A stretch of DNA of 64,000 bases from Clostridia bacterium (GTDB taxonomy: Bacteria > Bacillota > Clostridia > Oscillospirales > CAG-272), in assembly GCA_017462485.1 (NCBI GenBank), contig JAFTRA010000017.1, forward strand, positions 111,132 through 175,131, in the 5' to 3' direction. Positions 38,654 through 59,263 of the stretch are shown one piece after another. The number at the start of each line of letters is the position of its first letter. Position 1 is the first letter of the stretch. The notes beneath the pieces are model-generated. The model worked only from the letters and a program-made list of their open reading frames with translations, had not been told where the DNA came from and did no database searches. A program made the position numbers and the translations under genes.

Positions 38654-38697
38654 TTTTGCCGACAAGTTAAAATAAATGTCGGCTAAATGTCGGCAAA
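38654..38697. repeat. Inverted repeat with GCCGACA/TGTCGGC units (copy 1)
   Basis: TTGCCGACA, a short loop and TGTCGGC-TAAA-TGTCGGCAAA. The same element, with one extra left unit, lies beside the intact GGGtGRT gene at 58,138-58,195. It is part of the long shared stretch described under repeat R1. Confidence 0.8.
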
Positions 38698-38851
38698 CAG
38701 CAAAAATATACCCCTATCGTCTAAACAACGATAGGGGTGTTTTTCTTAAAATCCCTTATAAATCAAGCCTTCGAAGCTTCCTCGATAGCAACTGCAACAG
38801 CTACTGTCATTCCAACCATGGGGTTGTTACCTGCTCCGATGAGACCCATCA
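38655..38851 (-). repeat. R1: displaced 3' end of the GGGtGRT gene with its terminator
   Basis: Positions 38,763-38,851 encode the last 29 residues of the GGGtGRT protein (MGLIGAGNNPMVGM...EEASKA, stop at 38,763). Beyond the stop the copy continues through a terminator hairpin (38,710-38,738) and the GCCGACA inverted repeat. From the hairpin to the last codons it is identical over about 75 bases to the intact gene's flank at 58,207-58,283, whereas the coding part differs at several silent sites. Similarity ends after CCCATCA. Confidence 0.92.
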
Positions 38852-38930
38852 CATCACTTTGCGCCATCGGCGCAATACATCACTATGAGCAAAGCTAATA
38901 ACATCACTGCGGCAACGCCGCAACATCACT
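38851..38930 (+). repeat. Four ACATCACT units alternating with small hairpins
   Basis: ACATCACT occurs at 38,851, 38,877, 38,901 and 38,923, spaced 26, 24 and 22 bases. Between them are hairpins such as TTGCGCC-atc-GGCGCAA and TGCGGC-aac-GCCGCA. The array starts exactly where R1 similarity stops and precedes a four-helix-bundle gene remnant. Looks like a small mobile or structured element rather than CRISPR (units too short, spacers palindromic). Confidence 0.8.
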
Positions 38931-38983
38931 CTTTGCAAACGCTCGAAATTATGGTATAATATCATTGAAAGCGAGGTGCTACT

Positions 38984-39196
38984 ATGGCTGAATCCAAACT
39001 CCGTGAATTATCAATGAACTTTTCCGTTGACATTATCAATCTTGTCAAATATCTGAAATCCAATCACGAAACGATTATTGCAAATCAAATCGGCAGAAGC
39101 GGTACGAGTATTGGCGCAAATATACACGAAGCACAGTATGCACAAGGCAAAAAGGATTTTATATCTAAGCTCGAAATTGCTCTTAAATTTACATAA
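38984..39196 (+). pseudogene. Truncated four-helix-bundle (S23-like) protein gene
   Basis: Seventy codons: LRELSMNFSVDIINLVKYL then QIGRSGTSIGANIHEAQYAQGKKDFISKLEIALK, the conserved first half of the S23/four-helix-bundle family found with 23S rRNA intervening sequences and other mobile bits. Full members have roughly 110-125 residues; here the frame ends FT-stop right after ALK, losing the last two helices. A TATAAT lies at 38,954 and GAGGTGCTACT precedes the ATG. Confidence 0.8.
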
Positions 39197-39224
39197 AAAG
39201 CACAGTCACGAGGCTTTACATTGA

Positions 39225-40637
39225 TTATTTTACAGTGACGCTATTCTCAGCGTTCGTTTTTGCCTTTCCCATTGACCTAAATGCAAAGGACAAAAGAACA
39301 AGCTGCATAGCAATCGTGAATATCCAGGATACCGGATAAACCATAAAGAGTCCGCGAATATTCTGCATAGACTCTATGTTATAGAAGAGGACCTCAACCC
39401 AGAAGATTCTGAAGAAGCAAGCGCCGATAAGCGATATTATCATAGATGATATCGAATATCCCATTCCGCGCACTGCAGAGCTAAGAACCTCCATTATACC
39501 GCAGAGAAAATAGGTTGTAAGGACTACCTTCATAATCTCAAGTGCCTCATTAACAACCACCTCTGCATCAGCCATGCTACTATCCACAAATAGATTTGCA
39601 AGCTCGCGACCGAAGAGAAGCTCTGTTTGAGTAATAATTACTCCCAAAACCACAACTTGAATCAAACAATACCATACGGATTTTTTTACTCGGTCATATT
39701 TTTTTGCACCGTAGTTCTGACCTACGAAGGTCATAGACGCCTTACTAAAGCTATTCATAGCGGTATAGCTTATTCCATCAATATTAGTAGCTATTGTCTT
39801 CGCGGAAACTGTCGTCGTCGGGAAGGTATTTACCGCGCTTGACAAAATAACGTTCGATATGCTGAAGAACGAGGACTGAATACCGGTTGGAACGCCATAC
39901 CTTAGAATCCTTGATAATACTTTCGTATCAATCCTAAGCTTTCGCAGATATAGACGGTAGTTCTCCCCTCTCTTGCACAAAAGAACGATAACCACCCATG
40001 CGGCAGACAAATATTGAGATACAATAGTTGCGATAGCAACACCTTCAACAGACATATTAAATTTAATAACGAAAACGAGATTAAGAAGAACGTTAACGAG
40101 CCCCGTAGAAGCCAGCGCAAAAAGAGGCGTCTTCGAATCACCGATCGAGCGAAGAATTGATGCGCCGAAATTATAAACCGAGCTTGCCGGTATGCCCAGA
40201 CATATTATAGTAATATAAAGAACTGCTTTATCAAGCACCTCCGGTTTGGTGTCCATAAGAATCAGCGCAGGTCTCGCAACAATAAGTCCGATAGCCATAA
40301 ACAAAAGTCCGCCGATAACCGAGAATGCCATAGATGTATGTACCGTACTCTCGACGCGCTCGTTATCCTTTGCACCGTAGCATTGGGAAAGGACTACGTT
40401 AGTTCCCGCCGCGATGCCTAAAAGAAAATTAACTATCAAATTAGTGAGTGCTCCGGTGCTTCCCACCGCCGCCAAGGCGACGTCGTCTCCCGAATATCTT
40501 CCAACGACTATGCTATCAGCCATATTATAAAAAATCTGCAGCATTCCCATAGCAATTATAGGAAGTGCAAAAAGAATTATCCTAAAAAATAGCGGTCCCT
40601 CTGTGAAATTGCGTTTCGGCTTTATACGTTCCACCAT
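39225..40637 (-). CDS. MATE family efflux transporter
   Basis: A 470-residue membrane protein with about twelve hydrophobic segments. N-terminus FRIILFALPIIAMGMLQIFYNMADSIVVGRYSG is the MATE pattern, repeated in the second half (ILRYGVPTGIQSSFFSISNVILSSAVNTF). It exports cationic or polyaromatic compounds by Na+ or H+ exchange; the substrate is unknown. ATG at 40,635-40,637 after AGGAGATGCTTTG. Lies in the first block between repeats R1 and R2. Confidence 0.92.
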   Translation of the reverse strand: MVERIKPKRNFTEGPLFFRIILFALPIIAMGMLQIFYNMADSIVVGRYSGDDVALAAVGSTGALTNLIVNFLLGIAAGTNVVLSQCYGAKDNERVESTVHTSMAFSVIGGLLFMAIGLIVARPALILMDTKPEVLDKAVLYITIICLGIPASSVYNFGASILRSIGDSKTPLFALASTGLVNVLLNLVFVIKFNMSVEGVAIATIVSQYLSAAWVVIVLLCKRGENYRLYLRKLRIDTKVLSRILRYGVPTGIQSSFFSISNVILSSAVNTFPTTTVSAKTIATNIDGISYTAMNSFSKASMTFVGQNYGAKKYDRVKKSVWYCLIQVVVLGVIITQTELLFGRELANLFVDSSMADAEVVVNEALEIMKVVLTTYFLCGIMEVLSSAVRGMGYSISSMIISLIGACFFRIFWVEVLFYNIESMQNIRGLFMVYPVSWIFTIAMQLVLLSFAFRSMGKAKTNAENSVTVK

Positions 40638-40671
40638 CAAAGCATCTCCTCTTACTTAATTCTTCCAATAA

Positions 40672-40701
40672 ATTATACACCACTTTATTTGTATTTGTCA
40701 A
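40672..40701 (-). promoter_or_regulatory. Promoter of the MATE gene
   Basis: Read leftward: TTGACA (40,696-40,701), 18 bases, TATAAT (40,672-40,677). Confidence 0.7.
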
Positions 40702-40725
40702 TTAAACAAGATAAAAATATACAAT

Positions 40726-40775
40726 AATGCTATAAAAAAAGTTTATAATGCTATAAAAAAAGTTTATAATGCTAT
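40726..40775. repeat. AT-rich 21-base tandem repeat, 2.4 copies
   Basis: The unit AATGCTATAAAAAAAGTTTAT is repeated twice without change (40,726-40,746; 40,747-40,767) and then begins a third time (AATGCTAT). It lies between the divergent MATE and glycosidase promoters and could be a regulator site or a slippage product. Confidence 0.85.
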
Positions 40776-40827
40776 TTTGCAATAGAAATTGCTATAATTT
40801 CAACGAATGCAAATAGTTTAAAACATA

Positions 40828-40856
40828 TTTACAAACTCCGAAAAATGTGATATACT
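40828..40856 (+). promoter_or_regulatory. Promoter of the cellulase-like gene
   Basis: TTTACA (40,828-40,833), 17 bases, TATACT (40,851-40,856), followed by the ribosome site AAAGGAGAAA before the ATG at 40,893. Confidence 0.7.
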
Positions 40857-40892
40857 GAACTTACGAAACAAAACCTCAAAAGGAGAAATTTT

Positions 40893-42146
40893 ATGATACG
40901 AGGAGAAAATAAAATCCCTAAGCATCTGCCTAAAAAGCTTACTATATCCTTCCCTATTTGGGGACTTTATGATACCGGTAACGGCACCTATCACGACATA
41001 GATAAAATGATGAGAGAGCACGTTGAACGTGGCTTTAACTGCATGAGAATTGATGACGGCGCAGGTCTTATGCACGACATAAACGGTAACCCGCGAGGAC
41101 CGGTTTATTTCGGCAGAGGATTTGGCGAATTCGATTTGAAAATGAGGCAAAGCGCAGCATCCGGAGATCCCGGTTTCTGCGATACGAGAAAAAGACTTAT
41201 CGAAATTTTCCGTTCCGCAAAGAAGCACGGCATGTATATAATCCTTTCGTCCTGGTACTATCTACATACCTACTGGTACGTTGACTCTGCTCTCGCAACC
41301 GAGCTTGAAGCTATAAAGCCTCACGATAGATTCCTCGCATTCGCTAAATTTTTGCATTACATTTTGCTTGAGCTTGAAAAAGAAGGCTTGGATTCGCAGA
41401 TAGCGTTTGCGGAAATTTTCAATGAAGCTGACGGACTATGCTTCATTGACGGCTACGGTCATAAAAACAAAATAAGCAGTGAGGAAATTGCTCGCTTCAG
41501 AGAAGATCACGAGAGGGCTATCGAATGGATAAAAGAACGTCATCCTCATATACTCTTTGCGTTTGACTCCTATTCGTACTATGCTGATCACGATCAGATT
41601 CCTAAAAATCTTGAAGTCTATAACTTCCATAACTACTTTATGTGGAGCGTTTATCATACATCTGTAGAGCGTGATAACACGTTGCTCGCAACCCCTCCTA
41701 TCCCTATGGAAGCCGTCAGAGCATCCACGAAGCCGGGATTCCCTGCTGCGGAAGATTGGTATCAGAGAGTATGGTTCTACAATAATATTTCAGACTTTGA
41801 GCGAGCAAACGCGCAAGCTAATGCTTACCTCGAAGAACATAAAGATGAAATACTAAAGAAACTCAAAGAAACAGTTGATCACGTTCGCTCCAACCTCGAC
41901 GGCGCACTCTCAGGACTCCCCACCGTTTCAGGTGAAGGAGTTTCATATTCCGGTAGCTATCATATGATTTTCGAGGAATATTCAGAGACGTTCTGGTCTA
42001 TAGTAAGTGAAATGATGAAGCTTTATCGCTCGCTCGGTCTTTGGGGAACGGTTGTCAGAACCTGCTGCGGTCCGGAAGACCCCGTTTGGTATTCTCATCC
42101 TGAAAAGCTTGTAGAGATGAACCGCATCTTCACATCAGAGGAATAA
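40893..42146 (+). CDS. Cellulase-like glycoside hydrolase (TIM barrel), no signal peptide
   Basis: A 417-residue clan GH-A-like protein. The acid/base Glu is suggested by FAEIFNEAD (Asn-Glu pair after strand 4) and a nucleophile candidate by VSGEGVSY. Family blocks such as FNCMRIDDGAG and YIILSSWYYLHTYW match proteins labelled cellulase-like. No export signal, so it acts inside the cell on imported oligosaccharides. Substrate not predictable. It ends just before repeat R2 and shares the terminator at 42,283-42,334. Confidence 0.75.
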   Translation: MIRGENKIPKHLPKKLTISFPIWGLYDTGNGTYHDIDKMMREHVERGFNCMRIDDGAGLMHDINGNPRGPVYFGRGFGEFDLKMRQSAASGDPGFCDTRKRLIEIFRSAKKHGMYIILSSWYYLHTYWYVDSALATELEAIKPHDRFLAFAKFLHYILLELEKEGLDSQIAFAEIFNEADGLCFIDGYGHKNKISSEEIARFREDHERAIEWIKERHPHILFAFDSYSYYADHDQIPKNLEVYNFHNYFMWSVYHTSVERDNTLLATPPIPMEAVRASTKPGFPAAEDWYQRVWFYNNISDFERANAQANAYLEEHKDEILKKLKETVDHVRSNLDGALSGLPTVSGEGVSYSGSYHMIFEEYSETFWSIVSEMMKLYRSLGLWGTVVRTCCGPEDPVWYSHPEKLVEMNRIFTSEE

Positions 42147-42282
42147 ACATTCTTTAAATACTATTTCGAGTTGCTAATATATTCGTATTTATGGAAATCT
42201 TTTATTTTTTCTACTTCTAATAATATAATTAAGAAAAAAATTATAAATGCTGCGTAGATTGCTCGCGGTAAAAAACAAAAAT

Positions 42283-42334
42283 GAGGCTGAGTCAAAAGCT
42301 TATAATTAAGCGAAAGACTCAGCCTCGTTTTTTT
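42283..42334. terminator. Terminator joined to repeat R2
   Basis: Arms GAGGCTGAGTC (42,283-42,293) and GACTCAGCCTC (42,316-42,326), then seven T. Its sequence is unlike the terminators of R1, R3 and R4. It serves the cellulase-like gene from the left and formerly the displaced gene end from the right. Confidence 0.85.
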
Positions 42335-42349
42335 AAAATCCTTTATAAA

Positions 42350-42577
42350 TCAAGCCTTTGAAGCTTCTTCAATTGCAACTGCAACGGTCATACCAACCAT
42401 GGGGTTGTTACCTGCTCCGGATAATCGACGCAGTGCGAGTCTGCAAGCCCCGCTTGTAAGCGAGCCGAGGAAGATTGCTCCACGAGCGTTGTGCGCAGCA
42501 GAACAAGGTGCGTAGCACCAAGCATCAAGCGAAGCGAAGAGGCGTGGCTCGTCGGGAGTATAAGTCCCATCATCTCT
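42350..42577 (-). repeat. R2: displaced GGGtGRT gene end interrupted by a 143-base hairpin-rich insert
   Basis: Positions 42,350-42,419 encode GAGNNPMVGMTVAVAIEEASKA-stop (two residues shorter than the intact gene in the VAVAVA run). At 42,420-42,562 a GC-rich insert full of short palindromes (for example GGTGC-gta-GCACC) breaks the gene; the gene pattern resumes with TCCCATCATCTCT at 42,565-42,577 and then stops. So two events are visible: gene-end displacement and a later insertion at the same point. Confidence 0.85.
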
Positions 42578-42930
42578 GTGCGTTAATGAGTTTTGAGACG
42601 CATTAAAATGATAAAAAGCCTTATAAAATAATCTTTTTGAGCTGTAAAATCCTTGCGCCGAACACATCACATTCAATTTTCCTGAAAACATTATATCGCG
42701 TTTTGATGTCGCCGTAAATGATGTGGTCGAAGAGTTTGCAAAAAGGTTGCAAACAAATCAACAAAAGACATTTTGAAAAATAAAAACATAATGTTGTCTT
42801 TTATAGATATATGTAGTATAATTTGAAGTGAATGATTACCTTGGATATTTATGATATATTACAGAAAAGAAGCTCCTCCAAACGTTCCATGCAGCAAAGT
42901 CAAAACCGCTCCGGTGTGTGCTCAACAAAA
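42578..42930. other. Non-coding stretch between R2 and the SIS gene
   Basis: About 350 bases with no convincing gene. A plus-strand promoter-like pair, TTGTCT and TATAAT with 17 bases between, lies near 42,793-42,822. The 72-codon frame it would feed runs antisense into the SIS gene and shows no family pattern. A 40-odd-codon open frame (ending FAKRLQTNQQKTF near 42,775) is unassigned and may be chance or decay product. Confidence 0.5.
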
Positions 42931-43524
42931 TCATTCAAAAAAATGTTTCTCAACCTCTGCGCAAAGGTAGTGGTAAACGGGCAAATGAAGCTCCTGAATC
43001 TTGTAGGTTTCGGTTTCGGGTACGCGAACGGCAACGTCGCATGTTTCTGACAGAGCACCACCGTTCTTTCCCGTCAGTGCAATCGTTCCAATCCCGATTG
43101 CTTTTGCAACCGTAGCGGCGTTCACCACATTGGCGGAATTCCCGGAGGTTGACAGCCCGATAAATACATCGTTGGGTTGGGCATAACCGTAAAGCATTTG
43201 CGCATACACCATAGAAGGTTCTACATCGTTTATGAATGCGCTCATAAAAGCTGTATGAGCGGAAAGGGATATTGCGGGTAGGGAGCCTTGTAAATGCTCT
43301 CGAATATTCTCGGGTATTTTTTTGTCGTCTACTTTTCGTTTGAGCAAAAAGCCTTTCATAAGCTCTCCGACGATGTGGTCGCAGTCAGAAGCGCTGCCGC
43401 CGTTGCCACAGAGCAACAGCTTGCCTTTTTTCTTGTAGCAATGTATCAGGGTTTCTCTTGCACGCAGTATATCATCCTTGCAAGAAAGCAATTTCGGGTA
43501 TCTCTCAAGTAGTTCGGTTAACAT
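42931..43524 (-). CDS. SIS-domain phosphosugar isomerase, GmhA-like
   Basis: A 197-residue SIS protein. CGNGGSASDCDHIVGELMKGF and GLSTSGNSANVVNAATVAKAIG are the sedoheptulose-7-phosphate isomerase (GmhA) signatures, with HAVxxE-like ending (ELHLPVYHYLCAEVEKHFF). In a block with ROK kinase and beta-mannosidase it may act on a phosphorylated hexose or heptose; heptose biosynthesis partners are absent. ATG chosen after AAGGAGAAAAAAT. Confidence 0.85.
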   Translation of the reverse strand: MLTELLERYPKLLSCKDDILRARETLIHCYKKKGKLLLCGNGGSASDCDHIVGELMKGFLLKRKVDDKKIPENIREHLQGSLPAISLSAHTAFMSAFINDVEPSMVYAQMLYGYAQPNDVFIGLSTSGNSANVVNAATVAKAIGIGTIALTGKNGGALSETCDVAVRVPETETYKIQELHLPVYHYLCAEVEKHFFE

Positions 43525-43535
43525 ATTTTTTCTCC

Positions 43536-44483
43536 TTATAAAAGTGCTGTGGCGACAGATGCATAATCTCCAATCACTTCTCCAAGCCTTGCGGCAACGA
43601 TTTGACAACAGTCGGCAGAAAAAGACAACGCTTCCTTCGCTATTTCTTTTTCCATTGCCTCACAAAAAAGTGCTTGATTTCTGGCAAAAATGCTTCCTAT
43701 GACAATTTTTTCCGGATTTAAAATATCGATAAGAAAAGATAATCCCTTCCCTAAATATTCTCCGGATATACGATAGACCTCAAGTGCCGTGGAGTCGCCT
43801 TTTGCTGCAGCATCTGCTATCGACCTCGCATTGATATCATTTACGGACATTCCCTCTTTAAAATATAGTGGATACGTGCCGTTTTCGATGCATTTTAAAG
43901 CCATAACGTAGCCGAGCTGTGCAATTCCCCCACCGCTGCAAAATCCTTCGAAGGAGCCGCGCTTGCAATATCCGGTCGGTCCGTCTTTTTCGAGGCGTAT
44001 ATGACCGATCTCGCCTGCGTTCCCGTTTGTGCCTTCGTATAATTTTCCATTCAGGATCAAGCCTGCGCCGAGACCTGTTCCGAAGGTTAAAAAAATCATA
44101 TTTTCACATCCCATACCTGCGCCGAATTTCCACTCTGCCACAGCGCATGCGTTTGCATCGTTCTGTAATTTTGTCGGGGCGTTGTAATGATTTTCAATAT
44201 ATTTAACGATTTCAATATGATCCCAGCCGGGTAGATTCGGGGGGCTCATGATGATTCCACGTGCGGAATCAAGCGGCCCTCCGCAGGAGATACCGATTTT
44301 ATCGGGAGTCTTATCGAGCAGACTGTCTGCAAGCTCGAAAAGACGGTCTAACATCTGATATGCGCCGATACCGTGATCTGTAGGTGTCGATTTCTTTTTT
44401 GAAATCTTAATCGTTTTACCGTCCCATAGAGCCGTGACAACGGCGCACTTTGTTCCGCCAATATCAAATCCAAGTATATACAT
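43536..44483 (-). CDS. ROK family sugar kinase
   Basis: A 315-residue ROK protein: ATP-binding GFDIGGTKCAVV at the N-terminus, LQNDANACAVAEWKFGAG, and GTGLGAGLILNGKLYEGTNGNAGEIGHI. The zinc-site region reads CKRGSFEGFCSGGG. No helix-turn-helix, so it is a kinase, not a repressor. It probably phosphorylates glucose, mannose or an N-acetylhexosamine released by the neighbouring GH2 enzyme. Twelve bases from the SIS gene, so same operon. Confidence 0.9.
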   Translation of the reverse strand: MYILGFDIGGTKCAVVTALWDGKTIKISKKKSTPTDHGIGAYQMLDRLFELADSLLDKTPDKIGISCGGPLDSARGIIMSPPNLPGWDHIEIVKYIENHYNAPTKLQNDANACAVAEWKFGAGMGCENMIFLTFGTGLGAGLILNGKLYEGTNGNAGEIGHIRLEKDGPTGYCKRGSFEGFCSGGGIAQLGYVMALKCIENGTYPLYFKEGMSVNDINARSIADAAAKGDSTALEVYRISGEYLGKGLSFLIDILNPEKIVIGSIFARNQALFCEAMEKEIAKEALSFSADCCQIVAARLGEVIGDYASVATALL

Positions 44484-44492
44484 AACGTCTCC

Positions 44493-46718
44493 TCACAAAT
44501 GATATTTCTTCATGACGGCCTTGTACATTTCAAGCGAAATCGGAGGATATCCGCAGAGGTAGTGGTTATATCCGCGTTTGTCGTCGATTTCCCATTCAAA
44601 TATCAAGATTTTTTGTTCGGAATAATATGTAGGCAACTTAACAACTTTAGTGCTTGTGTTAATCGCTGCTATAAAGTCACCTCTATATATTATTTCATCG
44701 GTGCAAGCATCCTTGACTGTTAAGTAACCGCGTTTTTTCTGTAAAGTATCATTACAAGCATATATTTGCAATCCCCAATTTGAGATTTCATCCGCAACAA
44801 TGACAAAGGGCGCCTGTGAACGTTTTATATAGTCGTATGCAATCTTCTTGGTGAAATAGTAATCCACCACCGCATCCGACATTTGGGGCCAGCCATCTAA
44901 CAAATTCCACCATATAATGCCCGTTTTTTCGGGGCGACCCACGCGTATGCGTTCAATAAAATATTTCTTCGCCTCGGCTTGCGAGATTTGAGATGCCAGC
45001 ACGTATTCCTCCGGATCGATCGGAACGCTTCCAAAAAGCTGACGCACCTGTTTTTCCATCAACATTACACGTTTGTCATTACCGTTCTGGTCGCTTGAAT
45101 GAAGGATCCATTCCGAATTGTTGGTGTATGGCCACACTCGGTCGGGCGTGATAAATTTTTTGATAGACTCAATTGATGGACATCCGTGATATCCAGTTTC
45201 ACTGACAAAATGAGCCTTATTGTTTTTGTAAAAATCGCTCTTGAAATAGTCGCGCGGTCCCCAGAGATGATCCTCGGGCAAGGCAAGCTCCTTGTTTTTT
45301 GAGCGGTATGCCTCGCTTGACACGTAGGGCGAGCTTGCGAGATACGGTCTGCCTATGTCGTTCTGCCATACAGCACGCGGCAATACCTCACGCGTCAGAG
45401 TGTTGTTTGACGGGTCGGCAAATGCTCTTATCACAAGGTCTATTTCGTTATCCCCCGACCATAAAATTATCGATGGATGATTTCGAAGCTTTCGTATTAC
45501 AGAGGTCGCCTCGGCTTCAAGCTGCTTTTTGTAGCTTTCCGTTTCGGGATAGATACGGCACGCCATAGCGAAATCCTGCCAGACCATAATTCCGTTTCTG
45601 TCGCAAAATTCAAAAAACGCGTGATCCTCGTATACGTTGCCTCCCCAACAGCGGAGGACGTTACAGCCTATATCTTTAACGAGAGCTAAGGATTTTTCGT
45701 AACGCTCCGCGTCACGGCAGTGGAACGCGTCGAGCGGAACCCAGTTTGAGCCCTTACACATTATCTCTACGCCGTTTATAAGGAATCTGAATTTTCCGTT
45801 TACGCCGTCCGTCATATCTGTACGCTCAAGCTCGACAGTACGTATTCCGAACGAGGATTTCTCCTCGTGTATGAGCTTGCCGTCTTTATAGATGCTTGCC
45901 GTAACGTCATATACGTTCGGTTCTCCGTAGCCGTAGGGCCACCATTTTTTCGGATTTTTAATATTGACTCCGATGCGTCCCGCTTTTTTGCCACTCACAA
46001 TGGTTCGTGTCTCAAAAAAACTATCGTCACCGCAAATTCCTCTAAAAACAAGCTCTGCGTTTTTAACGTCGTCAAACTTGCCCTGAAGCTCGTAAAGCGC
46101 CGATACGGATGTGCCGTTGTAGGCAAAGAAAAGCTGAGAAAAGTAGATTTCGTCGCGAACCTCGAGCCGAACGTCTCTCCAAATCCCCGCGGTCACAGCT
46201 CTCGGCATAATATCCCAGCCGTAGGTATGGGGCGCGCGACGAAGCGCAGTCTCGATAGTCCCGTTTTCCCACGACATCATCGAATTTACGTTATATTCGG
46301 TATCGTGAGCCGCCAATACCGACGAACTTATATGTACCGTCAGAGTGTTTTCTCCGTCGATAAGATATTTACCGACGTTAAATTCGTGAGCGATGAGCAT
46401 ATTATCGCTCTCGCCTATCTTAACCCCGTTTATAAAATATTCGGCAAGGCAGTCTACGCCCTCAAAAATGAGATAGACGTTCTCTCTCTCAAGGGGAGCG
46501 TCAAAAACGCGCTCGTAAAACCATTCGTATTCCTCATACTTTTCAGCCTCGAGTATGTTTTCTCCCATAAAAAGATCCTCGGGAAGGTATCCTGCCTTTG
46601 AGAGATCAAGCTGTACGCACCCGGGAACCTGCGCGTCGATACATATTATATTTTCTTCCTGTGAGCATTGACTTTTTCCCCTCAAGGACCAAGCTCCGTT
46701 CAATGTGATTTTTTTCAT
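44493..46718 (-). CDS. GH2 family glycosidase, beta-mannosidase-like
   Basis: A 741-residue GH2 enzyme without signal peptide. Sugar-binding jelly roll (about 1-190), Ig-like domain, then a TIM barrel with acid/base Glu425 (LWSGDNEID) and nucleophile Glu507 (FVSETGYHG). The WYERVF, NWVPLDAF and LRCWGGNVYE blocks are typical of beta-mannosidases. Acts on imported manno-oligosaccharides, feeding the ROK kinase and SIS isomerase downstream. Somewhat shorter than typical family members. Confidence 0.9.
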   Translation of the reverse strand: MKKITLNGAWSLRGKSQCSQEENIICIDAQVPGCVQLDLSKAGYLPEDLFMGENILEAEKYEEYEWFYERVFDAPLERENVYLIFEGVDCLAEYFINGVKIGESDNMLIAHEFNVGKYLIDGENTLTVHISSSVLAAHDTEYNVNSMMSWENGTIETALRRAPHTYGWDIMPRAVTAGIWRDVRLEVRDEIYFSQLFFAYNGTSVSALYELQGKFDDVKNAELVFRGICGDDSFFETRTIVSGKKAGRIGVNIKNPKKWWPYGYGEPNVYDVTASIYKDGKLIHEEKSSFGIRTVELERTDMTDGVNGKFRFLINGVEIMCKGSNWVPLDAFHCRDAERYEKSLALVKDIGCNVLRCWGGNVYEDHAFFEFCDRNGIMVWQDFAMACRIYPETESYKKQLEAEATSVIRKLRNHPSIILWSGDNEIDLVIRAFADPSNNTLTREVLPRAVWQNDIGRPYLASSPYVSSEAYRSKNKELALPEDHLWGPRDYFKSDFYKNNKAHFVSETGYHGCPSIESIKKFITPDRVWPYTNNSEWILHSSDQNGNDKRVMLMEKQVRQLFGSVPIDPEEYVLASQISQAEAKKYFIERIRVGRPEKTGIIWWNLLDGWPQMSDAVVDYYFTKKIAYDYIKRSQAPFVIVADEISNWGLQIYACNDTLQKKRGYLTVKDACTDEIIYRGDFIAAINTSTKVVKLPTYYSEQKILIFEWEIDDKRGYNHYLCGYPPISLEMYKAVMKKYHL

Positions 46719-51726: not shown

Positions 51727-51770
51727 TACGTGAGAATTACCTGCATTTCGATTAAAATGATATAAAAACA

Positions 51771-51992: not shown

Positions 51993-52219
51993 ATAAAAGT
52001 GCCTGCGGCACTTTTCGGGGTGATGAAAAAGCCAGTGTTTTCAACTAAAAATAGGATGTATTCCATGAGCGAACTACATCATGTTGATGTGTTCTTAGAC
52101 ACATTATAGATCAAATTCAAAGAAAAATCAAGTATCTTTTAACATCTTTTTAAGAACTTTTATTCAAATCATAGTGACGTGTCTTTGTTTTGTAATTTTT
52201 AAGTGATATTACAGTCTTT
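51993..52219. other. Non-coding stretch after R4
   Basis: About 225 bases. The hairpin at 51,995-52,015 starts it; a looser pair (CATCATGTTGATG near 52,077) and AT-rich DNA follow. No gene recognised. Confidence 0.6.
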
Positions 52220-53173
52220 TTATTTCAATTCGTCAATACGCCTTGAAAATGCTTTTCCTATTTTTGCGGTCACATCAAGCACAAGGAGGCACATTTCTTT
52301 GCTAAAAGCATATCCCCTGTCGTTTGATCTAAAGGTTTCAAAGGAGATAACACCTTCAAATTCAATCTTTTTTAGTGATTCACAAAACTCGTTCCAATTA
52401 ATGGTTCCTGTAAGAGGCATTATATGTGCATCGCTAATCCCTTCGTTGTCATGTACATGAAGCACCTTAAGCCTTTTTCCAAGAGTTACTATATTTTCTG
52501 CTGGTCCCTTTTTGACAAGATTTGCATGCCCCGTGTCGTAACAGCATCCAAAAACCTCTTTTCCTGCTATTGCGTTAAGTTTGTCAACAAGATTGGCGGA
52601 ATATTCGGGAAAACTGAATTCATTAGTAGCATATTCATTGATTCCATCCGACCTTTTTCTCCACACAAAACTGTTTTCAAGGCAAACCGTAACCTTGTTT
52701 TTGCAAGCAAGAAGCTCCGGAATAAAAGCAGAATAAAATTTAAGATTAAGCTCCTCTATATCTTTTGAAGTAACCGAGATATCTCCCCACTCACGCTGTA
52801 TTACGTGAACCACGAGATTTGGGATACCCACGTAATCGCAATATTCAATATTTCTTTTTATGATCCTTATCATATATTCAAACGACTCGGGATACCGAAA
52901 AACATAACTTGGAAATGGGGCATGTGCCTGGAAGATTTCGAGACCATTTTTTCTTATATATGCCAGCTCCTCAGCGTAGTATTCGATTACTTCGTCCAAA
53001 GGCTTTTCAAAAATACTTGTGCCATTAAAGGTTCCATTGATAAGATCGGAGTATTTTACCGCGTGGTCAAGATTCCAGTCTATAGCGTCAAAACCCGCAG
53101 CTTTTATTGCAGCATAACCGCTTTCAAAGCCAAGTCGATCTACCGTGTTACCTGTTTGCATACCAATTCTCAT
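52220..53173 (-). CDS. TIM-barrel sugar phosphate isomerase/epimerase-like protein
   Basis: A 317-residue xylose isomerase-like TIM-barrel protein starting MRIGMQTGNTVDRLGFESGYAAIKAAGFD. Metal ligands are suggested by VCLENSF, GCCYDTGHANL, VLHVHDNEG and VISFETF. It is the last gene of a leftward operon with GH127-like, SIS and glycerol-1-phosphate dehydrogenase genes, so it likely handles the released pentose or a derivative. Confidence 0.82.
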   Translation of the reverse strand: MRIGMQTGNTVDRLGFESGYAAIKAAGFDAIDWNLDHAVKYSDLINGTFNGTSIFEKPLDEVIEYYAEELAYIRKNGLEIFQAHAPFPSYVFRYPESFEYMIRIIKRNIEYCDYVGIPNLVVHVIQREWGDISVTSKDIEELNLKFYSAFIPELLACKNKVTVCLENSFVWRKRSDGINEYATNEFSFPEYSANLVDKLNAIAGKEVFGCCYDTGHANLVKKGPAENIVTLGKRLKVLHVHDNEGISDAHIMPLTGTINWNEFCESLKKIEFEGVISFETFRSNDRGYAFSKEMCLLVLDVTAKIGKAFSRRIDELK

Positions 53174-53210
53174 AATACGAATTCTCCTTTTTTTATTTAT
53201 TTACATAGCT

Positions 53211-55142
53211 TTATTTTGTTGGCAACCATGCTGCAATCGTGCTTTTCCAATCTTTTCCTGCAGAAGCATAATCAATAAGTCTGAAGTGTTCTGAGCCTTC
53301 TCCGCAAAATCGAAGGCACAGTATGCACTCGTTGAATTCTTCTTCTGTAAAAACCAAAGACCCGTTTTTCTTTTCAAAATTAAATACCGAATCTGCGGAT
53401 TTTCCGAGACGCGAGTCTGCAGCAAGTACGATGGGCCCTCTTGTTAAAGCAATGTAATCGTCATACTCAGGCTTATGATACACTGTTTGCGCATTAGCAA
53501 AATGCCAGCCTTTTCCGGAACCGGTCATATCTGTATATATCACGTCTTCATCCCAACTTTGCGGATAATGTATACAAAGCTGCATATCGAAAGAGATACA
53601 GATTTCGGTTTTGCCATACCATTCTCCGTAAAATACAGCGAAGCCATCCTCCAAATACTGCTTCATCTCCGAATTTATCACCGCATTTACAGACCAAGCA
53701 GGAACTCTCACCTTGAATTCAAAAGCTTGCGGTTTTTCGGTGCTTACAGTAATTTTAATGTTTCCATGCTTAGGATAATCACCTTGCACGTCTACTACTA
53801 CCCTTCCGCCATTTATATTTACCTCACTACTCCCATTCTCGAAGAAAGACAAAATAATACCACCGTCATAACGCAGAAGTCTGTGCGATGCATAAATGCC
53901 AAGCCCCACAGAACCGATACAAGCGCAACAGCCATAATAGCTTCCGTCTGAAAGCACCTGATTTCCGCCAACGCCAATACCGCGTACTCCGGGGGTTAGC
54001 GGACTATAGCTGTCAAAGGGCATAAACGTATCCTTCAATATATTAAGGATCGGGTTATTGCGGAATTTATAACGCATCCATCCGCTTTCGCTATGCTCTG
54101 TATTCAAAGCACCGAGGTAGGCATTATAGAAACTGATTTCGATAGCATCTGCAAATTTCGGATCACCTGTCAATCTATAAAGCGAAGCACAATATTTCAT
54201 CCACGTAACTGTTACGCAGGTTTCCTGCTCACGCTCACCGCGCTGAGCTGTTTGCCGTACTGAAGTATGATCCAACAGCTCGTGTGTGCAACCAAGCGAT
54301 CCAATAATGCTAACGTCGGAAGCCAAAATCGCATAACCGTAATTGACGGCAGCCGTTTTATATTTTTCGATTCCGGTCACTTGGTAATAAGCAATCAATC
54401 CCTCAAAGCACGAAGTCAGCTCATATGCTTTTGAAATTCCATACTGATACGGTAACAACTTATTTTCATACGCCAATTCAAAAACATTTACCCGATCTGC
54501 ACCGCCGCATTTTACTATGTAATCGGCAAAATTCAAAAATCGTAATTCTCTCGTTTGTCGATATAGCCAAACAACAGGTTCAAGCAACGAGGATGAATTG
54601 ATGCCAAACCAGCTTGATGAGCAGCTTGTAATATCAAGCTTCCCTTCACCGATTCGGTCAATAATATAATCTGTATGCTTGATCAAATAAACAAGAATCT
54701 CATTCTTTAATTTTTCGGAATGACAGATATCGTAAAAATAGAGCATTCCGAGTAACACATACTTTCGGCACCAAAGATCCCACCCTTGAAACTCTTTTTC
54801 TCTTTCGTACGTCGACACCCGTCCATCTGCTTCCGCTACGGTAAGCATATCCTTGACGGTACTTTCGAGAACTGCGTACAGCTTTGGGTTTCTCGTGTAT
54901 GAATACACCGAAGCTGCCCCTCGCATCATCTTGCCCCAATATTCGCCGCGCCAGGCTAATGTTTGAGCGTCCGGCTGTTCTCTGAACTGGTCAACAAATT
55001 TTTTCCAAAGTGCTTCGTCTAATAGCTGTTCTCTTTCTATAAATTCAACCGCATTATAAAAAGCCCCCTCGATATTATGGTTGACATCTATCACCTTCAA
55101 CAATTCGTTTGAATCATTTTTTTCTATAAACTCCATAATCAT
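53211..55142 (-). CDS. GH127-like beta-L-arabinofuranosidase (DUF1680)
   Basis: A 643-residue (alpha/alpha)6-barrel-type protein without signal peptide. The metal/catalytic residues of GH127 are all in place: Glu307 and Cys309 in EQETCVTVTW, Cys405 and Cys406 in YYGCCACIG. In characterised enzymes these bind zinc and one Cys is the nucleophile. C-terminal beta domains contain FKVRVPAWS and LTRGPIVLA. It should release L-arabinofuranose from imported oligosaccharides. Start behind AAAAGGAGTTT. Confidence 0.85.
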   Translation of the reverse strand: MIMEFIEKNDSNELLKVIDVNHNIEGAFYNAVEFIEREQLLDEALWKKFVDQFREQPDAQTLAWRGEYWGKMMRGAASVYSYTRNPKLYAVLESTVKDMLTVAEADGRVSTYEREKEFQGWDLWCRKYVLLGMLYFYDICHSEKLKNEILVYLIKHTDYIIDRIGEGKLDITSCSSSWFGINSSSLLEPVVWLYRQTRELRFLNFADYIVKCGGADRVNVFELAYENKLLPYQYGISKAYELTSCFEGLIAYYQVTGIEKYKTAAVNYGYAILASDVSIIGSLGCTHELLDHTSVRQTAQRGEREQETCVTVTWMKYCASLYRLTGDPKFADAIEISFYNAYLGALNTEHSESGWMRYKFRNNPILNILKDTFMPFDSYSPLTPGVRGIGVGGNQVLSDGSYYGCCACIGSVGLGIYASHRLLRYDGGIILSFFENGSSEVNINGGRVVVDVQGDYPKHGNIKITVSTEKPQAFEFKVRVPAWSVNAVINSEMKQYLEDGFAVFYGEWYGKTEICISFDMQLCIHYPQSWDEDVIYTDMTGSGKGWHFANAQTVYHKPEYDDYIALTRGPIVLAADSRLGKSADSVFNFEKKNGSLVFTEEEFNECILCLRFCGEGSEHFRLIDYASAGKDWKSTIAAWLPTK

Positions 55143-55169
55143 AAACTCCTTTTATATCATTTATACTTA

Positions 55170-55685
55170 TTATTCCAGGTTCGCATGACGCGCGCGCATT
55201 TTATCGTCATCCTCTCCAAGTGCTGATACCGTTGCATCGCAAAACAACAGCACCGCCTGCTCAAAAAGCGTTCCCATAATAGTGGATGCTGATACGCTGT
55301 CTTTAGTCGGTGCCGGTAAAACGACAACCGAATCCGACCGTGATGCGAGCGCAGAATCAGCAGATGCCGTAAGAGCGTAGACCGTTGCCCCTTGCTCCTT
55401 TGCTGTTTCTGCATATCTGAGCACGCTCGGCGTTTTTCCGGAGGCGGATGCAAGAATCAAAAGATCGTGTTTTTGGATTGCAGGTGTAACCGTTTCTCCA
55501 ACAACATATACCGTACGTCCGGCTTGAGCCAAACGCATAGCGAACGCACGAAGCATTAATCCGGAGCGTCCTGCACCGTACAAAAAAATTCGTTCGTGGC
55601 TGTTGAGAGCTTGCATGGCTTCTTTTACGGAAGCCTCGGGTATTTCCTCAAAAATTACCTTCAGTGCATTAAAGTCGTATGTCAT
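55170..55685 (-). CDS. SIS-domain isomerase, 6-phospho-3-hexuloisomerase (HxlB)-like
   Basis: A 171-residue single-SIS protein: RIFLYGAGRSGLMLRAFAMRLAQAG and DLLILASASGKTPSVLRYAETAKEQGA match HxlB-type isomerases of the ribulose monophosphate route. The partner HxlA (hexulose-6-phosphate synthase) is not adjacent, so here it may isomerise another keto-sugar phosphate. Lies 15 bases after the glycerol-1-phosphate dehydrogenase gene. Confidence 0.85.
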   Translation of the reverse strand: MTYDFNALKVIFEEIPEASVKEAMQALNSHERIFLYGAGRSGLMLRAFAMRLAQAGRTVYVVGETVTPAIQKHDLLILASASGKTPSVLRYAETAKEQGATVYALTASADSALASRSDSVVVLPAPTKDSVSASTIMGTLFEQAVLLFCDATVSALGEDDDKMRARHANLE

Positions 55686-55700
55686 ATTACCTCCCGCGCG

Positions 55701-56990
55701 TCAAAGCTGTTGGAAATTAACTGCTTTGGACTTTCCGGAAAACATCGCATAGTAGAGCCAAAGCACGCTGTAACGGTTTTTCAAATCCTTTCCGTAGAAC
55801 ATCGCATCGCAAATTTTTTTCTCGCCGTATGTTTCAATACATTCAGAAAAATGAAGTCCTGCCGCCTCCATCATACGATTACATTCGAGCGCAGAAGGAC
55901 ACTCGGAAAGAATTGCTTTGATCTCTGCCCACTTCTCACGATAAATAGGCTTTAGATCTTCACGATAGCTGCCAGCCTCTTCTTGAAGCTTTTCGACTTC
56001 ATCTGCTACAAATGCATAAATGTGCTTCCATGCCTGCATACGACTATCAGCAGCTTCTTCGCAAAAATCGTTTTCTTCCGATTTGAGAATTTGCTCTCGC
56101 ATAAATGCTGTCAGTATTGTAGTGTAGGCTACGTCGGTTCCATGCGTAAGATGCTTTTGATGATTAATCAATCCTACTATCTCAAAGAAATGCGACAGAT
56201 GATGCTCGCTTCCCGATCCCGGACGTGTTGTTTCAGCCAAAGTAAGCGTCACACCAATCAGTACCAGCGCGCGCATCAGGTTTTCAATTGCTTTGGGTTC
56301 GCGAGCTACGATCCTAGTAACAGAATCTCGAATATCCTCTGTTGTTTGGAGTACTATATCATAAATATTCCGGCACAAATGCTCGCCGCGGATCAGGTGT
56401 GACAATTTCCAATCGTTAAGTGAGCTATATTTGCCGATGATATCACCATATCCCGAACGTATCATACTCATAGGAGCATTTTTTAAAATATTAACGTCAC
56501 CAATGATAACATCGGGTGCATGCGTGGTATGCGTAACCTTCATACCGCCAAGAATCAACGCTGCCCCCGAAGAAGCATAGCCGTCCATCGAAGGCGCGGT
56601 TGCAATAATGCCGCTTTTGATACCGTGATTAAATGACACATACTTGCAAAGATCATTAATTACACCGGAGCCGATACCGAGAATAAAATCGACATCGCAA
56701 TTCAAATGTGTTTCTATTTCAGCAATCGCCGCTTCGTCAGGAACAAGCGGTTCGGTTGTTTCAAATAAGCATACAGCCCTCAGCTTGCTTCCGAGCAAGC
56801 TTTCAACGTGTTCACCGCATATAGTATAAGTATTACCGTCAGCGACAAGAAGAACGCTTTTATAATATTCAACTGCATAGGTAAGCTTATCCAGTACTCC
56901 TTCACCAATTTCAAGCGTGCTAATATCGCAACGATGTGTACGCCCGCATTTACAAACAATGTCGTGATTTAACAGATTTCTAACGTTCAT
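55701..56990 (-). CDS. araM: sn-Glycerol-1-phosphate dehydrogenase, AraM-like
   Basis: A 429-residue iron-alcohol-dehydrogenase-fold enzyme. NAD site GIGSGVINDLCKYVS, substrate block TAPSMDGYASSGAAL, metal ligands Asp in GYGDIIGK and His in SGSEHHLSHF and THGTDVAY. Reduces dihydroxyacetone phosphate to glycerol-1-phosphate. In Bacillus subtilis AraM lies in the arabinose operon; the GH127-like gene here gives the same arabinose context. ATG at 56,988-56,990 after AAAGGAGC. First gene of the operon. Confidence 0.85.
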   Translation of the reverse strand: MNVRNLLNHDIVCKCGRTHRCDISTLEIGEGVLDKLTYAVEYYKSVLLVADGNTYTICGEHVESLLGSKLRAVCLFETTEPLVPDEAAIAEIETHLNCDVDFILGIGSGVINDLCKYVSFNHGIKSGIIATAPSMDGYASSGAALILGGMKVTHTTHAPDVIIGDVNILKNAPMSMIRSGYGDIIGKYSSLNDWKLSHLIRGEHLCRNIYDIVLQTTEDIRDSVTRIVAREPKAIENLMRALVLIGVTLTLAETTRPGSGSEHHLSHFFEIVGLINHQKHLTHGTDVAYTTILTAFMREQILKSEENDFCEEAADSRMQAWKHIYAFVADEVEKLQEEAGSYREDLKPIYREKWAEIKAILSECPSALECNRMMEAAGLHFSECIETYGEKKICDAMFYGKDLKNRYSVLWLYYAMFSGKSKAVNFQQL

Positions 56991-57018
56991 AAGAAGCTCC
57001 TTTGACTTTAATGCTTGT

Positions 57019-57047
57019 ATTTTATCAAATTGATTGACTTTTGTCAA
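57019..57047 (-). promoter_or_regulatory. Promoter of the araM-SIS-GH127-isomerase operon
   Basis: Read leftward: TTGACA (57,042-57,047), 17 bases, TAAAAT (57,019-57,024). Confidence 0.75.
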
Positions 57048-57062
57048 CAACAGATAAAACTA

Positions 57063-57118
57063 TTGACATTCAATCATAAACGAGCTATAATTAAAGCATA
57101 ATCAATCATAATTAATCA
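57063..57118 (+). promoter_or_regulatory. Promoter of the DeoR gene with repeated TCAATCATAA boxes
   Basis: TTGACA (57,063-57,068), 17 bases, TATAAT (57,086-57,091). TCAATCATAA occurs inside the spacer (from about 57,070) and again downstream of the -10 (from about 57,104), with ATCAA boxes nearby including on the operon side. Direct repeats of this kind are usual DeoR-family operators, so self-repression and control of the divergent operon are likely. Confidence 0.65.
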
Positions 57119-57132
57119 AGGAGTCTAAATCA

Positions 57133-57825
57133 ATGCTGCAGTTACAACGCCAACAAGATATTATGGATATCTTAAAAAAGAAAAAGGAGCAAACCGTCAA
57201 AGAGCTCTGCGCCGCTCTCTATTGCAGTCCTGCGACTATCCGCCGTGATCTTTGCAGCTTAGAAAAGCAAGGACTTCTCAGACGGAGTTTTGGCGGTGCC
57301 GTTCTCAATGAGAGCTTTTTCGATCAACAACCTCTACTTATTAGAGCTGTAAAAAACATTGCCGAAAAACAGCGTATTTGCGCCAAGGCAGCTAAACTGA
57401 TTTGCCCCGGACAAACGATTTTCATAGATTCATCCTCAACGACGTATTTTTTGGCACCGTATTTGCGCGATATTCCCGAATTAACCGTTGTAACAAACAA
57501 TCCGTATTTGAATGTCGTTCTCTCACAGATGAAAGTAAACAACTATTGCACCGGTGGAAAAATGCTGACCAGCTCAATCGCGCTTGTCGGAAGCGAAGCA
57601 GAACGATTCATACGCGGAATCCATGCGGATGCATTCTTCTTTTCTGCGCGAGGCATTTGCAATGGACAGATATTTGATTCATCAAAGAATGAACGCGATA
57701 TCAAAATCACAATGCTGGAGCATTCGGACAAACATTATTTCCTATGCGATTCTACCAAGCTTGAGCAATCTTATCCATACAAAATTGCCGATCAATCATT
57801 AATAGATGAAACGATTACCGAATGA
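57133..57825 (+). CDS. DeoR family sugar-responsive repressor
   Basis: A 230-residue DeoR protein: helix-turn-helix QRQQDIMDILKKKKEQTVKELCAALYCSPATIRRDLCSLEKQGLLRRSFGG and a sugar-phosphate-sensing domain (IFIDSSSTTYFLAPYL, YFLCDSTKL). Divergent from the arabinose-type operon, with which it shares a short regulatory region. Inducer probably a phosphorylated sugar from that operon. Confidence 0.92.
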   Translation: MLQLQRQQDIMDILKKKKEQTVKELCAALYCSPATIRRDLCSLEKQGLLRRSFGGAVLNESFFDQQPLLIRAVKNIAEKQRICAKAAKLICPGQTIFIDSSSTTYFLAPYLRDIPELTVVTNNPYLNVVLSQMKVNNYCTGGKMLTSSIALVGSEAERFIRGIHADAFFFSARGICNGQIFDSSKNERDIKITMLEHSDKHYFLCDSTKLEQSYPYKIADQSLIDETITE

Positions 57826-58137
57826 TTTTAGGTTTATATTTTCTGCGCTTTCTTTTGTTATAATTAAAGCTTATTTTTCAATTAAATCTTTAATCACAAA
57901 ATTAGCAATCAAAGTCGATTAGATTAAAAGTAATTGAATATCAAATCTGATTTTTGCTCTCATCGTTACCTCTTATCTATTCTTTTACTCTTTATATCTA
58001 CAAGAGTGTGATGTGGAATTTAAAAAATATTGAGCAACTTTGTCGACTCGTAGCGCTCATACAACGACACTGCCGTCAAAGGCTCTCTATGCTTCATATT
58101 AAGGTTTAAAAATAGTGATAAATGACAAATAATAATT
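57826..58137. other. Non-coding stretch left of the GGGtGRT gene
   Basis: About 310 AT-rich bases. The only coding hint is a 25-codon leftward frame (58,020-58,097, MKHREPLTAVSLYERY...) vaguely like the start of a serine recombinase; too short to call. A TATAATTAAAGC promoter-like box lies near 57,859. Confidence 0.4.
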
Positions 58138-58195
58138 TTTGCCGACATTTTCTTTGCCGACAAGTAAAAATAAATGTCGGCAAAATGTCGGCAAA
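58138..58195. repeat. Long inverted repeat with TTGCCGACA/TGTCGGCAA units
   Basis: Left side TTTGCCGACATTTT-ctt-TGCCGACA, 12-base loop, right side TGTCGGCAAAATGTCGGCAAA: two nested pairs that can form a long stem with a small bulge. A shorter version lies at 38,654-38,697 in R1. It may be a recombination site, transcript end or mobile repeat. Confidence 0.85.
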
Positions 58196-58197
58196 CA

Positions 58198-58240
58198 GCA
58201 AAAAATATACCCCTATCGTCTAAACAACGATAGGGGTGTT
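58198..58240 (-). terminator. Terminator of the GGGtGRT gene
   Basis: ACCCCTATCGT (58,209-58,219) and AACGATAGGGGT (58,226-58,237), followed leftward by a T-rich tail. Identical to the hairpin in R1. Confidence 0.88.
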
Positions 58241-58261
58241 TTTCTTAAAATCCCTTATAAA

Positions 58262-59263
58262 TCAAGCCTTCGAAGCTTCCTCAATGGCAACTGCTACAGC
58301 AACAGTCATACCAACCATGGGGTTGTTACCTGCGCCGATGAGACCCATCATCTCTACGTGAGCGGGAACGGAGGAAGAGCCTGCGAACTGCGCGTCGCCG
58401 TGCATTCTACCCATAGTATCGGTCATACCGTAGGAAGCGGGGCCTGCTGCCATGTTATCGGGGTGAAGAGTACGGCCGGTACCGCCACCGGATGCAACCG
58501 AGAAGTACTTCTTGCCGTTCTCGTTACACCACTTCTTGTAGGTTCCTGCAACGGGGTGCTGGAATCTTGTGGGGTTGGTGGAGTTACCGGTAATGGAAAC
58601 GCCAACGTTCTCAAGACGCATGATTGCAACGCCTTCCGGAACACTGTCAGATCCGTAGCATCTAACCTTTGCTCTATCACCGTTAGAGTAAGCGATTTCT
58701 TTTACGATCTTAACCTCTTCGGTATAAGGATCAAACTCTGTCTGAACGTAGGTGAAGCCGTTGATACGGGAAATAATCATAGCGGCATCCTTACCAAGAC
58801 CGTTAAGGATAACGCGAAGGGGCTTTGTTCTTACCTTGTTTGCGTTAAGAGCAATCTTAATCGCGCCCTCTGCAGCAGCGAAGGACTCGTGACCTGCAAG
58901 GAAGCAGAAGCACTCGGTGGACTCGGAAAGAAGCATTGAGCCGAGGTTACCATGTCCAAGACCAACCTGACGGTTCTCTGCAACAGAGCCGGGAATGCAG
59001 AACGACTGAAGTCCGATACCGATAGCAGCAGCAGCGTCAGCAGCCTTGGTACAACCTTTCTTAATTGCGATTGCAGCGCCTACGGTGTAAGCCCATTTAG
59101 CATTCTCAAATGCGATAGGCTGGGTTTCTTCAACTATTTTATAGGGGTCGATGCCCTTTGCATCGCATATAGCCTTGCACTCGTCGATAGAGGAAATGCC
59201 ATATTCTTTAAGCGCGGCAAGAATTTTTGCCTCGCGTCTTTCATAACCTTCAAAATGTGCCAT
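58262..59263 (-). CDS. GGGtGRT family protein, intact copy and source of repeats R1-R4
   Basis: A 333-residue protein with the naming motif SVASGGGTGRTLHPDN and other conserved blocks (FCIPGS, ECFCFLAGHESFAAAEGAIK, ENVGVSITGNSTNP, GLIGAGNNPMVGMTV). Function is unknown; the family is almost always beside a NifU-like scaffold gene, as here, 16 bases away, so a role around an iron-sulfur or metal centre is plausible. Strong ribosome site AAGGAGGAAATATAA. The C-terminal AGNNPMVGM coding region is the point at which all four displaced copies begin. Confidence 0.9.
   Translation of the reverse strand: MAHFEGYERREAKILAALKEYGISSIDECKAICDAKGIDPYKIVEETQPIAFENAKWAYTVGAAIAIKKGCTKAADAAAAIGIGLQSFCIPGSVAENRQVGLGHGNLGSMLLSESTECFCFLAGHESFAAAEGAIKIALNANKVRTKPLRVILNGLGKDAAMIISRINGFTYVQTEFDPYTEEVKIVKEIAYSNGDRAKVRCYGSDSVPEGVAIMRLENVGVSITGNSTNPTRFQHPVAGTYKKWCNENGKKYFSVASGGGTGRTLHPDNMAAGPASYGMTDTMGRMHGDAQFAGSSSVPAHVEMMGLIGAGNNPMVGMTVAVAVAIEEASKA

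Follow-up and report, generated by a model that had tools for sequence, protein, structure and literature searches.

In a 64,000-nucleotide stretch of DNA from a Clostridia bacterium of the CAG-272 lineage (assembly GCA_017462485.1, contig JAFTRA010000017.1, positions 111,132 to 175,131), called the window in the following, the 3' end of a GGGtGRT gene is very probably where a family of integrative units attaches to the chromosome; the units would be stacked there by a tyrosine recombinase that we call int-A. The gene is followed by four displaced copies of its own end, int-A lies adjacent to such ends in relatives, the ends of the units are shared between genomes, an empty site is present in a related genus, and one unit lacking int-A is common to two genera. 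At this one chromosomal spot, a family of gut bacteria keeps gathering sugar-use, defence and toxin-antitoxin genes.

The GGGtGRT gene (58,262-59,263, minus strand) has an intact open reading frame (ORF) and matches PF14057 with an E-value of 8.1e-192. A NifU-like gene (59,280-59,996, minus strand; PF01592 at 21.7 bits, slightly below the Pfam cut-off of 22) is located directly upstream of it, and the attachment segment extends from codon 303 to the stop (58,262-58,357, minus strand). Downstream of the gene and on the same strand, the window has four copies of its last 20-31 codons, which separate units A to D, counted outwards from the gene. The copies are found at 51,900-51,992 (core at 51,940; 78 of 93 positions identical to the gene), 47,973-48,037 (core at 48,013; 66 of 93), 42,350-42,419 (core at 42,387; 55 of 93; an upstream part at 42,561-42,577) and, outermost, 38,763-38,851 (core at 38,806; 81 of 93), where the identities are ungapped and run from codon 303 to the last codon. 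They begin at differing codons, the one at 48.0 kb only at the core, and the one at 42.4 kb is interrupted by ca 140 bp of hairpin-rich DNA and has two codons missing. A 23-base core pattern, allowing up to two mismatches, has five matches in the 2.23-Mb genome, all of them in the array of the window, while the reversed pattern, used as a control, has none in the whole genome. The alignment and the genome-wide search confirm thus the original prediction, made from the sequence alone, of an intact gene with four displaced 3' ends on the minus strand. As a separate observation, the displaced end is split at the same place by hairpin-rich inserts of a similar kind, ca 140-170 bp long, in three genomes: in the window (42,421-42,577), in locus L054 and in locus L066.

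We now turn to the related genomes, where the site can be seen both empty and occupied. In genome G090, two copies of the gene end flank an element of 9,216 bp. Over 98 bp, starting at codon 303 and reaching 3 or 4 bases past the stop, the two copies show no differences. The element contains int-A, a serine recombinase, a SprT-like protein and a WYL protein, and beyond the outer copy follows a chromosomal flank with dnaJ. In G346, from the same genus as G090, the intact gene runs directly into this outer flank (81% identity over 1,610 bp, up to where the fetched stretch ends). In a three-way alignment, the empty site is matched by the left flank as far as the repeat and by the right flank from slightly after it. 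At the same place, G347 has an insertion of ca 1.1 kb, with a displaced piece of only about 22 bp as judged by eye. These three genomes belong to a genus other than that of the window. Within the window's genus, G319 has the same gene and the same outer flank (31.0-35.0 kb in the window) at a distance of 14.7 kb from the gene, compared to 23.3 kb in the window, with differing content in between, and in G172, as in the window, miaB-like and mutS-like genes are found in the flank that follows a displaced copy. The empty-site evidence is thus that of G346 and G090; for the window's own units it consists of the shared outer flank with other content. This is the presence and absence of blocks in relatives for which the original prediction had called, and the displaced copies are not scattered at random, being located at the edges of units with conserved ends.

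Direct repeats at both edges of an element, exact over 98 bp in G090 and in five copies in the window, could in principle also arise if the gene end had been duplicated locally or copied by gene conversion, the blocks being inserted by ordinary homologous recombination. The gene end is indeed repeated, and recombination between the repeats could exchange blocks. We consider this scenario to be highly improbable, since the limits of the 98-bp repeat are exact with a recombinase gene inside, the non-coding ends are conserved across genera, and the site is empty in a relative.

The recombinase beside the site is intact in relatives, whereas the window has a remnant only. This remnant, overlooked in the original prediction, is located at ca 47,703-47,809 (minus strand), behind the copy at 48.0 kb, and corresponds to the N-terminus of int-A: in a 37-residue match, 32 of the first 35 residues are identical to the intact protein of G093. 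In G093, G183, G096 (two genes), G318, G090 and G133, intact int-A genes immediately follow either the gene end or one of the displaced copies. A scan of one genome per species gave 37 loci with relatives of int-A, for which cores with up to four mismatches were accepted. The close relatives (68-100% identity, n = 21) begin 182-292 bp behind the start of a core in 17 cases. In the remaining four, the distance to the core is 2.2 kb (L092) or 1.1 kb (L104), the locus is cut by the contig end (L106), or the fetched stretch is coreless (L110, which is an inner int-A remnant in G209). None of the 16 distant relatives (21-30% identity) has a core. Eight of the 21 close loci overlap with the genomes G093, G183, G096 (two), G012, G209, G225 and G133. 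All 21 come from metagenome-assembled genomes (MAGs) labelled Oscillospiraceae or Clostridia, and their stated sources are the gut of sheep, goat, roe deer and water deer.

The int-A protein has ca 315 residues. A core-binding domain and a catalytic domain are recognised in it, and an arm-binding domain is not. R155, K180, H246, R249, H272 and Y281, which we take to be the tyrosine-recombinase active site, are invariant in all 12 sequences chosen for alignment. Among solved structures and NCBIfam models, the nearest are XerA, XerC-like and XerD, with scores below all of their curated cut-offs; the score against the integron integrase model TIGR02249 is 54 bits, the cut-off being 265. Simple recombinases without an arm-binding domain are described as a minority among the integrases of phages and of integrative and conjugative elements (ICEs) (PMC8138268). 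Phage and plasmid records were found to contain only int-A relatives of less than 60% identity. A protein scan of IMG/VR yielded weak relatives only and missed the int-A genes of L127 (67%) and L129 (76%), which were found with the core pattern, and such scans, including that of one genome per species, are therefore not exhaustive.

A serine recombinase and a 447-464-residue protein of no known family, mostly together with a protein of ca 155 residues, accompany int-A in L069, L064/L065 and L127. The serine recombinase and the larger protein are also found in G147 (L172), at another site and with another integrase-like protein, and the larger protein alone, with 450 residues, occurs beside an integrase-like protein in G027 (L171). 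These sets are perhaps elements with exchangeable integrases. The 455-residue protein of some int-A units was considered as a marker of the site and rejected: it is present in 4 of 295 genomes of the family, and in G027 and G147 it is on a contig other than that of the core, adjoining proteins that by eye resemble other integrases.

The non-coding ends of the elements are conserved across genera. At the right ends, a single similarity group takes in 15 of the 27 displaced copies. It comprises units with and without int-A and includes unit C of the window; two of the 15 overlap each other at a single place in G032, and another, L050, is connected to the group through just 22 bp. The right ends give 75 links between genomes. 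With control offsets, the number is 21 at 1.5 kb, 19 at 2.5 kb, 6 at 3.5 kb and 3 at 5 kb. Since many units are only 1-2.5 kb long, the two nearer offsets probably fall partly on the gene and on other ends. The right end that the window has in common with other genomes is at 42,420-42,750 (minus strand; 90% to G309 over 314 bp). For the left ends, 52 of 71 cores are in one group, largely through a hairpin behind the gene end, GGACACATCAT..ATGATGTGTCC, whose outer arms are nearly fixed in 46 sequences.

The window has such a left-end hairpin, GACACATCAT..TGATGTGTC, at 47,844-47,880 and one of the same type at 51,774-51,810, both on the minus strand. A TGTCGGC-type left end is found at 58,153-58,204, and a second one, 96% identical, at the outermost edge (38,655-38,706), again on the minus strand; this type is also present behind the gene in G172. 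Three types of sequence thus lie behind the stops: the first at 58.2 and 38.7 kb, the second at 51.8 and 47.8 kb (80%), and the third at 42.3 kb. It had been suggested that the last codons recur together with the terminator; this holds for the codons and not for the terminator.

Another option is that the gene end is simply a convenient target for several unrelated integrases of phages, ICEs and islands, with no dominant system. Two groups of integrases that are no more than 26% identical to int-A are indeed located beside a core, namely one protein of 407 residues with a weak arm-binding match in G172 (L044), and a pair with 367 residues in an IMG/VR record (L128) and 386 residues in MT836118 (L138), which are 42.5% identical to each other. 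As a description of the whole, this option is unlikely, considering that 17 of the 21 close relatives of int-A keep to the site and that the right ends are alike in 15 of 27 copies. It accounts for some of the units, perhaps those with TGTCGGC-type ends. Viral records are also found with int-A itself: a 32-kb IMG/VR record has two int-A genes at two tandem cores, one of which is adjoined by phage tail genes, and another begins with the NifU-like gene and the GGGtGRT gene, behind which lies an int-A of 46% identity.

The insertion model of the original prediction is thus supported by the recombinase beside the gene end, the shared unit ends, the empty and occupied pair and the comparison with G319. 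In the mechanism that we infer, a unit would bring a segment matching the gene end, and int-A would recombine the two. This segment starts at codon 303 and finishes shortly after the stop, which gives 98 bp in the freshest case. The unit would provide the gene with an equivalent end, and the former end would stay as a displaced copy at the far edge. As the restored end is again a target, units would stack, with new ones presumably nearest to the gene. Some units carry int-A, and prophage-like records occur at the site too. Units without it, of which the small ones have one to a few cargo genes, would be moved in trans by the int-A of another unit. The stack of the window, which has no intact int-A, is probably idle unless one arrives. 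In the family, the core pattern has matches in 164 of 295 genomes and at least two matches in 33 of them (hand count; at least one extra match, in G256, looks spurious). On contigs with two or more cores, these are all on the same strand, in 23 of 23 cases among the matches listed and in 6 of 6 further ones. Dating the units by the decay of the copies was also considered and abandoned: the divergence between neighbouring copies grows outwards in some arrays (G093, G089), hardly so in G096, and not strictly in the window.

It is important to point out that a number of observations weigh against this picture. The outermost copy of the window (81 of 93) is nearer to the gene than the inner ones, which means that age cannot simply be read from decay. 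Unit A, next to the gene, differs from units B and C in the type of its left end, and its recombinase may therefore be a different one. In G090, attL and attR are equal over the full 98 bp, and the crossover point can thus not be located. Neither an excised circle nor an empty-site read nor an unoccupied attP was seen in the data, which are assembled sequences only. The IMG/VR record that starts with the gene and int-A has only one core, and its far edge is not seen. The genome of the window has no int-A match at E ≤ 1e-60, and such matches are present in only 8 of the 295 genomes, with that of G152 (43%) having no core beside it. Loss of int-A after insertion is for this reason an alternative to movement in trans.

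In genomes picked for having at least two cores, 38 repeat-to-repeat units were measured, with lengths of 0.9-21.5 kb; the longest may be several units with decayed inner copies. An int-A match, intact or partial, is found in 8 of them and none in the other 30, which were not searched unit by unit for other recombinases and transfer genes. One possibility is ordinary tandem accretion of elements derived from ICEs and integrative and mobilizable elements (IMEs), together with decayed cis-mobilizable elements (CIMEs), such that the units without recombinase are immobile deletion products carried along. Graded lengths of the int-A matches, with 37 residues in the window, 100 in G209 and 186 in G012, are what this possibility leads one to expect, and tandem CIMEs of 1.2-13 kb at the 3' ends of fda, rpsI, rpmG and rplL have been published (PMC7563491). 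We regard it as a serious but rather doubtful alternative. The units without an int-A match make up 30 of 38, and five of these have repeats of 85-89 identical positions out of 93, within the range of most int-A units (80-93, leaving aside the window's 52). Furthermore, Pfam and PHROGs name no relaxase or conjugation genes among the element proteins scanned, which are not all of the proteins.

The strongest point concerns a unit of 1,451 bp in G007 and one of 1,450 bp in G156, which are of different genera. The two units, neither of which has int-A, are 98-100% identical over ca 1.1 kb of their interior and ca 93% at the edges, and the GGGtGRT genes before them are 86-94% identical. Beyond the displaced copy, only a 73-bp stretch aligns, at 81%. 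A unit lacking int-A is thus shared between genera as a discrete block, which on the basis of the alignments is the best evidence that such a unit would move as a unit.

Going one step further, the site could be a cassette platform of the integron kind with an independent origin. An Xer-like recombinase would then dock, in trans and at the coding 3' end of a core gene, cassettes of ca 1-4 kb that need only have the two end sequences, with a gene pool exchangeable across genera of gut Clostridia. This is a tentative proposal to which we give a little less than even weight. The cassettes would carry defence and toxin-antitoxin genes, single glycoside hydrolases and channels, a list that is put forward just as tentatively.

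Regarding the cargo, one unit has a single TIR protein (PF13676), a unit of G012 has ProBAC-like genes, and a 19.4-kb unit of G183 gives matches to DitA (3.8e-201), DitB (2e-96), AbiLi (5.4e-81) and AbiLii (3.2e-17). Five proteins from the same region in G319 have no PADLOC match. Other units contain what we take to be HicAB-like, HigBA-like and barnase/barstar-like pairs, an MscS-like channel, and GH28-like and GH3-like genes. With TIR, toxin-antitoxin-like and defence-profile cargo present, glycan genes are only one class among several. The blocks had been predicted to be sugar-gene blocks; the glycan genes are there, and across genomes they are not the sole cargo.

The hairpin of the left ends has 60 distinct sites in 19 of 27 chosen genomes, of which 56 are on the contig of the GGGtGRT gene (hand count). 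A core is located within 400 bp upstream in 28 of 72 matches (four records being read on both strands). The other 44 matches, of which a few do show a decayed gene end by eye, also speak against the proposed picture, and the hairpin marks the region more than the attachment site. The inner stem varies and yet pairs: with the arms fixed, each of the 37 distinct inner sequences gives a better fold than its own shuffles do on average. Judging from these sequence features, the hairpin is most likely a terminator with a fixed outer stem. Its GTT..AAC order is the opposite of the attC motif order. An integron attC is ruled out by this order, by the changing but pairing inner stem and by positions behind ordinary genes. 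A viral origin was likewise discarded, as the strict form has no matches in IMG/VR. As a side observation, the hairpin is often found behind ordinary genes, and many sites are present in G098:C77, G183:C8 and G007:C6.

It is also necessary to compare the site with known systems. The original prediction knew of no account of a GGGtGRT gene as insertion target, and our literature search, which covered few subscription papers, likewise found none. Tycheposons are modular cargo islands at one site that use tRNA genes. They are named as phage satellites (PMC11389934). The prediction also gave tRNA and tmRNA genes as the known targets; they are known targets and not the sole kinds, because protein-gene 3' ends (fda, rpsI, rpmG), with guaA at its 3' or 5' end, and tandem build-up have been described as well (PMC7563491). 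The ICE, IME and CIME islands of Streptococcus salivarius (rpmG, rpsI, fda, rplL) are similar in that a tyrosine recombinase targets the 3' end of a protein gene and in their tandem accretion, with CIMEs carrying 1.2-13 kb of cargo. Here, in contrast, the target gene is another one, an arm-binding domain is not recognised in int-A, the element proteins scanned include none named as a conjugation protein, most of the measured units are without int-A, and one array has up to four displaced copies, compared to two or three elements per island (PMC7563491). The dusA-associated integrases are alike in being one integrase family for one protein-coding gene, with variable cargo in prophages and islands; they use the 5' end of dusA, and the abstract does not mention stacks of small units (PMC4482086). 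Integrons and clusters of attC sites lacking integron integrases (CALINs) share the two-domain recombinase, the fixed platform and the one-orientation stack of small, mostly recombinase-less units (PMC11389934, PMC8138268). They differ in that the platform here is the end of a core gene, the repeated site is the gene-end sequence rather than attC, and int-A is far under the integron-integrase cut-off.

What is known already are thus protein-gene 3' ends as targets, tandem accretion and CIMEs (PMC7563491), and an integrase family for one gene (PMC4482086). As far as the searches go, the GGGtGRT target, a simple recombinase as the agent and an array mostly of small units without int-A are new. 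In uncultured gut Clostridia, exchangeable accessory genes can be traced with a simple mark, the last codons of one conserved gene, and the units, with their defence-profile (DitAB, AbiL-like, TIR), toxin-antitoxin-like and polysaccharide genes, could be mined for new defence and sugar-use systems. If small recombinase-less units indeed dock in trans, they would form a cassette system found in nature alongside integrons, one that might serve for inserting DNA site-specifically in Clostridia while the core gene stays intact.

Finally, we describe the units of the window. Unit A (51,993-58,152) has a DeoR regulator, an Fe-ADH that we take to be AraM-like, a SIS protein, GH127 and a TIM-barrel isomerase-like protein. 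Unit B (48,038-51,899) has an AraC regulator and two GH39-like genes, and unit C (42,593-47,972), which has both conserved element ends, contains the recombinase remnant, an AraC regulator, GH2, a ROK kinase and a SIS protein. Unit D (38,852-42,349) has a cellulase-like protein, a MATE transporter and a 23S_rRNA_IVP remnant. The core-to-core lengths are 6,365, 3,927, 5,626 and 3,581 bp for A to D, respectively. Each block had been predicted to have its own regulator or promoter. A regulator of its own is present in three of the four; none was recognised in unit D, the block at 38.8-42.4 kb. None of the 14 main ORFs scanned in units A-D is a phage structural gene. The two GH39-like genes of unit B have 84% identical 3' ends (50,325-50,403 and 51,646-51,724), which suggests a tandem duplication inside the unit.

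A gene or remnant of 23S_rRNA_IVP (PF05635), a four-helix bundle, is located near displaced ends or the gene end in the window (38,987-39,193, plus strand) and in L044, and by eye likewise in L042 and L075; in the window it is adjoined by a GTGATGT hairpin array. In the MAG G245, two GGGtGRT genes, one of them cut by the contig end, are found on two contigs (L070 and L071), possibly as a result of mixed strains. Just outside the outermost copy, the window has a large lipoprotein-like ORF (35,928-38,633) with a List_Bact repeat (PF09479) and a weak collagen match below the cut-off.

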